Source: an uncultured Deferribacteres bacterium
GTDB taxonomy: Bacteria > Zhuqueibacterota > JdFR-76 > DREG01
Assembly: GCA_913009825.1 (NCBI GenBank)
Contig: CAJVYQ010000043.1
Location: forward strand, 1-42,314
Reading direction: 5' to 3'
Length of the DNA stretch: 42,314 nucleotides
The notes below the pieces were generated by a model, which searched no databases, was not told where the DNA came from, and saw only the letters and a list, made by a program, of their open reading frames with translations. The translations under genes and the position numbers were made by a program. This document shows, one piece after another, positions 12,610 to 16,039 of this stretch (position 1 is the stretch's first letter; every line of letters starts with the position of its first letter).

Positions 12610-14274
12610 TCAGTCCGCCAACTTTCGCAATTTTTTCATTACATCGTTCACGCTGCGGCCAAAATAGTCGTGTAATTTCAAATATTCTGCATACAGTTGT
12701 GCATAAATAGCGGCGGATTTTTTGTTGGAACAGTACACTTCCTTTTTCAGACGCGCCATTTTTTTGGCTGCGGCAATAAAGTCATCGTAGCCGCCGTTTT
12801 CTTTTCCTGCGGCAATGGCGCCGATGATGGCCGCACCCAGCGCCGCGGCCTGCTGCGATGCTGCCAGATGAATATCCCGGCCGGTAACATCGGCATAAAT
12901 TTGCAGCAGGAGCGGGTTTTTCTCAGCTAAGCCGCCGCAAGCATACAGTTCGTTCACGGCCACTCCTCTTTCATGATGATTATCGATAATTTTCCTGGTG
13001 CCGAACGCTGTAGCCTCGATCAAAGCGCGGTAGATTTCCTCCGGTTTGGTCGACAGGGTCAATCCCATAAGACAGCCGGACAGTTGCCCATCCATCAAAA
13101 CGGAACGATTGCCGTTCCACCAATCCAAGGCTAATAAGCCGCTTTCACCCGGTTTTAACTCCATTGCTTTTAATTCAAGATATTTGTAGATATCCACTCC
13201 CAGCTGTTCAGCAGCTTTGTAATACTCATCCGGCACATAATTACGGATGAACCAATTGAAAATATCGCCGACAGCGGATTGACCCGATTCGTAGCCGACA
13301 AATCCGGGCAGGATGCCGTCTTCCACAATGCCGGCGATTCCTTCCGCCAGTACTTTATTTCTGCTCAATACCATGTGGCAGTTGGAGGTACCCAGCACCA
13401 AAACCATTTTCCCCTCTTCAGCTACTGAACTACCTAACACCGCAGCGTGAGCATCGATAATCGCAATTCCGACCGGAATGCCTGCGGGCAGCTCCATCTC
13501 ACCGGCCATTTCTGCGGTCAATTTCCCGGCCGGTGAACCAATGGGATAAATATCTTCACTCAATTTGTCGGCAACGATATGTTCAAAACGAGGATCGAGC
13601 GCCTTAAAAAAATCGCCGGAGGGGTACCCTTTTTCCTTATCCCACAATGCCTTATACCCGGCCTGACAAGCGCTGCGTTTTTCGCTGCCGGTCAATTGCC
13701 AAACCAGCCAATCGCCGGCCTCGATGATCCGGTCGGCCGCATCATAAATTTCCGGAGCTTCGTGCAAAATTTGCAGCGCTTTGGGGATAAGCCATTCGGA
13801 TGAGATTTTACCGCCATAGCGCTTTAAAAAATCCTCGCCGCGTTTTTCGGCCAATTCATTAATTTCATCGGCTTCCGGCTGAGCTGCATGGTGTTTCCAC
13901 AATTTCACCCAGGCATGGGGATTGGATTTGAATTCGTCCAACTCGCACAACGGCGTACCGGCAGAAGTGGCTGGTAAAATGGTGCAGGAGGTAAAATCAA
14001 CGCCGATACCGATGATTTCTTCAGGTTGAACCGCGGCTTCTGCAAGCGCTTTTTTAACCAGCTTTTTTGTCACCGTTAAATAGTCCATTGGATGCTGCAA
14101 TGCCCAATCCTGGCCCAATTTTGTTTTACCGTCGGGCAGCATTTCATCCATCACGCCATGGGGATAATTTTCAGTAATGGAAATCAGTTCCCCGCCGGTC
14201 GTTGCGTCGACCAAAAGTATCCTGCCTGATTCGGTACCAAAATCAAGGCCGACAGCGATCGATTTTTGTTTCAT
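12610..14274 (-). CDS. araB: Ribulokinase-type FGGY carbohydrate kinase
   Basis: The 554-residue protein has the size and motifs of AraB: VGLDFGTESGRILLVDA at the N-terminus (first ATP/phosphate loop), GVDFTSCTILP, IIDAHAAVLGS, LVLGTSNCHMVL, and LDWWNGNRSVLMDGQLSG, with the C-terminal CGGLAEKNPLLLQIYADV. AraB phosphorylates L-ribulose to L-ribulose 5-phosphate. No araA or araD isomerase/epimerase gene is in the window, so the substrate may be another ketopentose or ketose from the neighbouring enzymes. GGAGAA lies 10 bases before the ATG. A near-consensus promoter and two LacI-type operator-like palindromes lie 150-220 bp upstream, suggesting sugar-responsive repression. Confidence 0.88.
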   Translation of the reverse strand: MKQKSIAVGLDFGTESGRILLVDATTGGELISITENYPHGVMDEMLPDGKTKLGQDWALQHPMDYLTVTKKLVKKALAEAAVQPEEIIGIGVDFTSCTILPATSAGTPLCELDEFKSNPHAWVKLWKHHAAQPEADEINELAEKRGEDFLKRYGGKISSEWLIPKALQILHEAPEIYDAADRIIEAGDWLVWQLTGSEKRSACQAGYKALWDKEKGYPSGDFFKALDPRFEHIVADKLSEDIYPIGSPAGKLTAEMAGEMELPAGIPVGIAIIDAHAAVLGSSVAEEGKMVLVLGTSNCHMVLSRNKVLAEGIAGIVEDGILPGFVGYESGQSAVGDIFNWFIRNYVPDEYYKAAEQLGVDIYKYLELKAMELKPGESGLLALDWWNGNRSVLMDGQLSGCLMGLTLSTKPEEIYRALIEATAFGTRKIIDNHHERGVAVNELYACGGLAEKNPLLLQIYADVTGRDIHLAASQQAAALGAAIIGAIAAGKENGGYDDFIAAAKKMARLKKEVYCSNKKSAAIYAQLYAEYLKLHDYFGRSVNDVMKKLRKLAD

Positions 14275-14427
14275 GACGACGATTCTCCAAATTTAAATTG
14301 AAATCTTTATCTATTCCCGGATAGAAACAGATCGGCAAATAAAAGAAGAGGGGACTTTAAAAATTTCTTTCGGGAGATTTTGTCTATTAATCATAACTTT
14401 CTAAAAATGGATACACTCAATTGAAAT

Positions 14428-14441
14428 TGCAATCGATTTCC
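14428..14441 (-). promoter_or_regulatory. LacI-family-type operator, proximal site
   Basis: Read on the minus strand it is GGAAATCGATTGCA, which fits TGnAAnCGnTTnCA at 9 of the 10 fixed positions, with central CG at 14434-14435. It lies about 16-30 bases downstream of the predicted start of transcription of the araB promoter, a repressing position. Confidence 0.6.
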
Positions 14442-14454
14442 GCAAACGTTTTCA
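14441..14454 (-). promoter_or_regulatory. LacI-family-type operator, distal site
   Basis: On the minus strand TGAAAACGTTTGCG fits TGnAAnCGnTTnCA at 9 of the 10 fixed positions. Its centre is 13 bp from that of the neighbouring site, and the two share one base. It lies directly downstream of the -10 box at 14464-14469. No LacI-family regulator gene is in the window. Confidence 0.6.
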
Positions 14455-14463
14455 CCTTGGAAC

Positions 14464-14492
14464 ATTATACAGAAAATTGTTATTTGTGTCAA
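14464..14492 (-). promoter_or_regulatory. Consensus sigma-70 promoter upstream of araB
   Basis: On the minus strand TTGACA (14492-14487), exactly 17 bases, then TATAAT (14469-14464). Transcription would start near 14457 and leave a leader of about 180 bases before the kinase ATG. Both hexamers are perfect. Confidence 0.8.
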
Positions 14493-14539
14493 GAAGTTTT
14501 TTTGGGGAGGTGTATCTATTCCCGGCACAAATTTACGGT

Positions 14540-15718
14540 TCAAACTTTATTTTCTTTTACCCGCAACAGAAGAAGAAGCGAGATAACGGTTAAGACCAGG
14601 GAAAAAATCAAAGGAGCTTCCCGGCCGACCATATCCCATAAAACGCCGGCAATCAGAGAAGCGGGTAGTGCGCACAATCCGACAATCATTTGAAAGCCCC
14701 CCAGGCTGCTGGCGCGATGCTCCGGCGGGCACAATTCAGACACAAATGCCTTTTGTGCGGTTTCCAGTGCAGCACGACTGAGGCCGTAAAAGATAAAAAC
14801 CAGAATGACAACCGCCAGATGACGTGACCAGATGAAACTCAGGCAGGCGAGCATCCAAAAGAGAAAACCCAAACCGATGACCATTTTTCTCCCCCACCGA
14901 TCGGCCAGGTAACCAAAAGGATAAGAAGTGAAAGCGGCCACTACGGTAAAAAGCAAATAAAAAACCGGCACCGTCTGAATGGAATATCCCACATCTTTGG
15001 CAAATAGAAGCAGAAAGGAGTAACTGAACCACCCGGTAGAAAAAGCAGCGCTCAGCACGAGAAAGCGTTTAAAATCGATACTCAGATCTGCCAGGCTAAT
15101 TCCTTTGAAAACCTTTATTTCATGCGCCGGACGATCTTTGATCTTGATGAGAATGAGCGAAACGCCTATGAGAGACGGCAGCGCTGCAAGTAAAAAAATG
15201 GTAGTGAACCCGCTAAACCGAATAAGCAGCAGACAGAGTAATATACCGAGCACAGCGCCGAAATGATCGGCGGTGCGCAGCAAACCGAAGTTTTTTCCCC
15301 GGTTGGCGCCGGTGGAAATATCGGCAATGATGGCGTCCCGGGGTGCGCCGCGGATTTTGCCGGCCCGGTCGAGAATGCGAAAGGGCAGCACCATGGCCCA
15401 GGTTGTAGACAGAGCGTAACCGATGCGCGACAATGCGCCCATGGTATAGCCGGTCCAGATGAAGATTTTCCGCTTGCCCGATTTGTCGGAGTAGTAACCG
15501 GAAACCGCTTGCGACAGGGAGACAACGGCATCGCCGATCCCGTCCAGCAAACCGAGAATGGTCATATTGGCGCCCAGAGTGAACCGGATGAACAACGGCC
15601 AGATCGGGTAAATCATGTCGGAACCTAAATCATTCAGAAATGAAGCGGCGGCAAAGGTGTGCAGGATTTTTTTAGATTCTGTCTTTTGGAATTTTTTTTC
15701 AGTATTCGTGGTCATCAT
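14540..15718 (-). CDS. Major facilitator superfamily transporter
   Basis: The 392-residue protein has about 12 hydrophobic helices. The cytoplasmic loop between helices 2 and 3 reads SGYYSDKSGKRKIFIWTGY, the MFS signature (G-x-x-x-D-x-x-G-R/K-R/K). The second half has the equivalent FGYLADRWGRKMVIGLG. The pairing of DRAGKIRGAPRDAIIAD in helix 4-5 resembles the drug/metabolite exporter branch. The substrate cannot be read. The start region (MMTTNTEKK) has no strong ribosome site. It is on the same strand as the araB region but upstream of its promoter, so it is a separate transcription unit. Confidence 0.85.
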   Translation of the reverse strand: MMTTNTEKKFQKTESKKILHTFAAASFLNDLGSDMIYPIWPLFIRFTLGANMTILGLLDGIGDAVVSLSQAVSGYYSDKSGKRKIFIWTGYTMGALSRIGYALSTTWAMVLPFRILDRAGKIRGAPRDAIIADISTGANRGKNFGLLRTADHFGAVLGILLCLLLIRFSGFTTIFLLAALPSLIGVSLILIKIKDRPAHEIKVFKGISLADLSIDFKRFLVLSAAFSTGWFSYSFLLLFAKDVGYSIQTVPVFYLLFTVVAAFTSYPFGYLADRWGRKMVIGLGFLFWMLACLSFIWSRHLAVVILVFIFYGLSRAALETAQKAFVSELCPPEHRASSLGGFQMIVGLCALPASLIAGVLWDMVGREAPLIFSLVLTVISLLLLLRVKENKV

Positions 15719-15959: not shown

Positions 15960-16039
15960 CCAAAAAGTCTTTCTCCGCGTCTTTTGTGGATTTTGGTTGT
16001 GCTTAAAGAGATGAGCAAAACCCACAATGGAGCGTTGCC

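Follow-up and report, generated by a model that had tools for sequence, protein, structure and literature searches.

We find that the AraB-type kinase gene of this stretch is preceded by a perfect promoter and two overlapping operators that best fit a single LacI-family regulator of the genome, and we put at roughly three in four the probability that these elements form a sugar-inducible repression switch, in which that regulator, LacI4, would repress araB until a sugar imported via a TonB-receptor operon, or a metabolite of that sugar, releases the repressor. As read from the sequence, this case comprises the promoter, the operators, the one regulator that appears to fit them, its own operator, a second putative target, and apparent conservation in relatives. 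A sugar-controlled repression design at the kinase promoter was the core of the original prediction and is supported by our analysis. The result would connect the orphan kinase with a single named regulator and with an uptake operon, in a phylum on which little experimental work has been done.

The window (the whole stretch of DNA analysed, 42,314 nucleotides) was read directly on the minus strand, where the predicted TTGACA-N17-TATAAT promoter is present at 14492–14464; both the −35 hexamer (14487–14492) and the −10 hexamer (14464–14469) match at 6/6 positions, with a 17-bp spacer. Nine bases separate TATAAT from putative operator A (TGAAAACGTTTGCG, 14441–14454, minus strand), which is followed by putative operator B (GGAAATCGATTGCA, 14428–14441, minus strand). 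Each has one mismatch to TGnAAnCGnTTnCA, missing one of its ten fixed positions, and the two centres lie 13 bp apart within 14454–14428, as had been claimed. Two details of that claim needed correction: the operators, described as abutting, overlap by 1 bp through their common base 14441, and they do not lie over the transcription start. Judging from spacing, the start would fall near 14457, ~7 nt past the −10 hexamer, and the operator centres would thus be near +10 (A) and +23 (B), just downstream of it. The gene predicted to be regulated encodes an AraB-type FGGY kinase of 554 aa (12610–14274, minus strand, ATG at 14274), and its mRNA would carry a 5′ leader of ~180 nt (14275–14457, minus strand). 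A riboswitch or structured leader was rejected, as a search of the leader for known RNA families found none and its fold is ordinary (z = 0.71). Upstream of the promoter lies an MFS transporter gene (14540–15718, minus strand) in the same orientation as the kinase. We also observed a 13-bp direct repeat, TATCTATTCCCGG, at 14308–14320 and 14513–14525, flanking the promoter and leader and absent elsewhere among ~682 kb of loci from the same genome; it could be the site of another regulator or an insertion footprint.

Single words one mismatch from this degenerate consensus are common, with a mean of 2.6 per shuffle of the window, and it may be asked whether promoter and operator-like words came together by chance in front of a constitutively expressed kinase. 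The combination is much rarer than its parts. When the 265-bp intergenic region, where the observed pair overlaps, was dinucleotide-shuffled 20,000 times, two such sites arose in 5 of the shuffles; across whole-window shuffles, any pair of sites within 20 bp appeared in 1/300 and a perfect promoter in 2/300, and a promoter scan recovered just three perfect TTGACA/TATAAT promoters in the entire 5.1-Mb genome. A matrix built from other genomes moreover ranks precisely positions 14428 and 14441 highest in the 42 kb, and the promoter-operator arrangement is repeated on contig C56 (both described below). We regard coincidence as the least probable of the explanations considered.

Consistent with the original prediction, the window contains no LacI-family gene and no araA or araD; a LacI-family regulator was expected elsewhere in the genome, and the assembly of this genome (G000, 95.9% complete) holds four such genes, on contigs C9, C17, C13, and C53. 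The palindromes near these genes differ from one another (TCGAAACGTTTCGA for C9, GAAAACGTTTTC for C17, GAACCGGTTTA for C13, and TGCAAACGATTGTG for C53), and the GCAAWCG half-site of the C53 palindrome is also found in both window operators. LacI-family regulators combine an HTH with a periplasmic-binding-like domain, and the C53 gene, LacI4 (C53:22010-23056), scores above cut-off for PF00356 and PF13377/PF00532. Its orthologues in G006, G015, G034, and G042 are 47–58% identical and form one clade with it (support 100/99); most retain the recognition segment HPSTVSR, and across the phylum the promoters of LacI4 and these orthologues carry YGCAAWCGATTGCR. Individual own-promoter sites are TGCAAACGATTGCA in G015, CGCAAACGATTGCC in G034, GGCAAACGATTGTA at one of two genes in G042, and CACAATCGATTGCC at one of two in G006, where TTGACA-N17-TAAATT precedes the site ahead of the second gene of the clade. 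An even palindrome with a central CG is common to the LacI4 regulator gene and its putative targets.

A weight matrix for the LacI4 clade, trained solely on sites from other genomes and run over the 42-kb window, placed its best match at 14428 (operator B, 16.1 bits) and its second best at 14441 (operator A, 14.5 bits), although both fall below the clade's consensus strength. The window sites score 3 to 15 bits lower by the provisional C9, C17, and C13 matrices, each of which draws on two or three sites. These comparisons suggest that LacI4 is the only one of the four LacI-family proteins to fit the window operators. A GH78 rhamnosidase gene near LacI4 was not counted among its targets, as its site, TGCAAACGGTTCGG, reaches just 7.3 bits.

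It had been anticipated that the operator would recur elsewhere in the genome. We found it ahead of the LacI4 gene and ahead of a putative operon for sugar uptake, and relatives have the same site at the counterparts of these genes. Scanning the genome with YGCAAWCGDTT gave 70 matches, of which 15 fall outside coding sequence or at gene starts. At C56:15960-16005, TTGACA-N17-TAAAAT is followed by GCAATCGATTGC (in full, TTGACA-N17-TAAAAT-TAGG-GCAATCGATTGCA, with the operator at 15992–16005), upstream of an operon that encodes a 999-aa TonB-dependent receptor (PF13715, PF07715) together with other exported proteins; this promoter was also found independently in the promoter scan. In G034, two of the intergenic exact matches stand before the LacI4 orthologue and before a TonB-receptor operon with similar neighbours, the latter operon bearing TGCAAACGATTGCT and adjoining a homologous acyltransferase-like gene. 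Given the C56 copy, the G034 sites, and the G006 arrangement of TTGACA-N17-TAAATT with CACAATCGATTGCC, the promoter-then-operator layout recurs in the LacI4 clade. The tandem form does not share this wider distribution: in a genome search every copy except that of the window has at least three mismatches, and among LacI4-type sites the 13-bp pair is found at araB only.

One alternative is that a different LacI-family protein recognises the operators, either the C17 regulator or one encoded in the 4% of the genome that is unassembled. The half-site TGAAAAC of operator A resembles C17 sites (GGAAAACGTTTTCT), and this operator reaches 11.6 bits by the C17 matrix, which is built on two sites; at 95.9% completeness, a further LacI-family gene could also be missing from the assembly. 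However, operator B scores 8.0 bits by the C17 matrix versus 16.1 by that of LacI4, and the C56 site is further apart still, at 5.0 versus 20.7 bits. The C17 cluster additionally contains a cellobiose 2-epimerase-like gene, which would fit a different set of sugars. We therefore consider control by another LacI-family protein unlikely, while giving it more weight than any other rival to LacI4.

A CcpA-type global catabolite regulator is a second candidate reader, as the operator consensus TGnAAnCGnTTnCA is cre-like, resembling the CcpA cre consensus. Most global LacI regulators act on sugar genes too (PMC4052901). A broad set of intergenic sites is nevertheless lacking: the strict consensus, discarded as a genome probe when it revealed no regulon, has 21 exact matches of which 19 lie inside ORFs, and the LacI4-type matrix finds only a few promoter-placed sites. 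The four LacI-family proteins also differ in the sites that accompany their own genes, and have sugar-related neighbours where these were scanned; global control of this type seems very improbable to us.

Under the LacI4 reading, the proposed switch would operate as follows. A strong sigma-70-type promoter would transcribe the AraB-type kinase gene, and dimeric LacI4, encoded far away on C53, would bind the two overlapping sites just past the start and block either the initiation of transcription or promoter escape. A sugar imported through the co-regulated TonB-receptor operon, or a metabolite derived from it, would then bind LacI4 and cause its release, upon which LacI4 would be expressed along with the kinase and the uptake operon. 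The link between araB and LacI4 appears to be lineage-specific and was seen in one genome only, since a scan of the relatives' araB promoters found the motif in none; in relatives the site is present at the regulator's own promoter and, in G034, at the TonB operon, and is absent at araB.

Some gene neighbourhoods provide circumstantial support for the genes concerned serving one pathway. A more divergent AraB (48–49%) follows GH31 and YdjC genes in G015 and G034; in the present genome, homologues of those two genes (58–63%) are located ~11 kb from LacI4 on its contig and ~4 kb from the C56 operator. An HAD gene stands beside araB both here and in G006 and was dismissed as a shared feature, as the two HAD proteins lack significant similarity. 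Separately, genes for acyltransferase-like lipoproteins occur near LacI4-operator TonB operons in two genera (L323:4419-5552 and L243:16112-17245), the L243 gene having a weak PF03417 match.

The operators had been expected to identify the regulon and, through it, the true substrate of the kinase; they do point to a regulator and an uptake operon, but the regulon leaves the substrate unfixed. The kinase scores 729 bits against NCBIfam PRK04123.1 (cut-off 428) and 706 bits against TIGR01234 (cut-off 583), and aligns at full length with the ribulokinase 3qdk (Bacillus halodurans AraB). With its full-length match and ribulokinase models above cut-off it resembles the canonical AraB of L-arabinose operons, from which it differs in its genomic setting and in carrying Ser where 3qdk has A96. 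The kinase can be described as an orphan beyond the window too, across the genome as assembled: araA (PF02610, matched in 12 of the 59 genomes searched) was not found in the 95.9% complete assembly, and no araD was recognised. The sole class II aldolase, and the only PF00596 protein, lies on C3, ~15 kb from a fucose isomerase gene, and is taken as a fuculose-phosphate aldolase. The C3 fucose isomerase was itself rejected as a co-regulated partner, its cluster having no such operator. That region (L175, G000:C3:44500-64400, and L320) groups the fucose isomerase gene with genes for an ABC sugar transporter and an RpiR-like regulator and with an aldehyde dehydrogenase-like ORF, all of which except the isomerase were named by eye; with the aldolase farther on, the region looks like a fucose microcompartment locus.

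Among relatives, the closest AraB homologues (57–67%) stand apart from araA, and in G009, G017, and G021 araA adjoins a second paralogue that is 43–45% identical. Across 92 homologous loci (L052-L131 among them, with one record counted twice as L118/L166), araA was nearby at 1/26 Ser96 loci versus 24/66 Ala96 loci (Fisher p = 0.0013, a value that ignores kinship). Elsewhere, by eye from translations, Ser96 genes adjoin araD-like and zinc-type dehydrogenase-like genes, or in L121 a FucI-like gene. Of the substrate-contact residues, A96 alone differs in the D-ribulokinase RblK, and phosphorylation of D-ribulose has been reported for E. coli AraB (PMC12307932). The substrate is probably a ketopentose not made by AraA. 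Given that the search for araA was negative and that the single class II aldolase sits near fucose genes, D-ribulose is the most economical choice, and our best guess is its conversion to D-ribulose-5-phosphate, which would pass straight into the pentose phosphate pathway. In another arrangement, observed at L165:5582-8803 (G013) and L170:4504-7346 (G001), the gene immediately before an AraB homologue encodes a short FucI-like isomerase (PF02952); the one from G013 falls far under the L-fucose isomerase cut-offs and is possibly a different aldose isomerase.

A broader proposal, which we advance tentatively and think more doubtful than the switch itself, is that the Ser96 AraB-like group acts mostly outside L-arabinose catabolism, for example on D-ribulose or on L-ribulose from an alditol, and that in this lineage a LacI4-controlled regulon for glycan uptake has recruited the kinase by way of overlapping operators of recent origin. 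If true, this would represent a pathway missed by current annotation, which names the gene araB. An araB annotation should not be equated with the use of L-arabinose where araA and araD are missing.

Several known systems resemble this one. The E. coli lac operator O1 has its centre ~10 bp past a sigma-70 start, and one operator of the kinase promoter would likewise be centred at ~+10; here, however, there are two overlapping sites, with another sequence. The local LacI-family sugar regulons described by Ravcheev et al. 2014 (PMC4052901) are alike in their even palindromes with a central CG, their autoregulated repressors, their sites at sugar-gene promoters, and their overlapping tandem sites 13 bp apart, and differ in that the regulator here is distant from the kinase and the phylum is known mostly from uncultured relatives. 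For LacI-family tandem sites, intersite distances peak at 13, 22, and 32 bp, and overlapping 13-bp pairs occur at 110 operons, with no structural or mechanistic explanation (PMC4052901). The E. coli GntR operators at gntKU, as cited in PMC4052901, also comprise two overlapping sites ~13 bp apart at a sugar kinase promoter, but involve a gluconate kinase of another family, another regulator, and another sequence. The proposed system is a sound though fairly ordinary instance of the known LacI-family sugar switches, and its kinase promoter supplies a clear natural case of such operators overlapping with their centres 13 bp apart.
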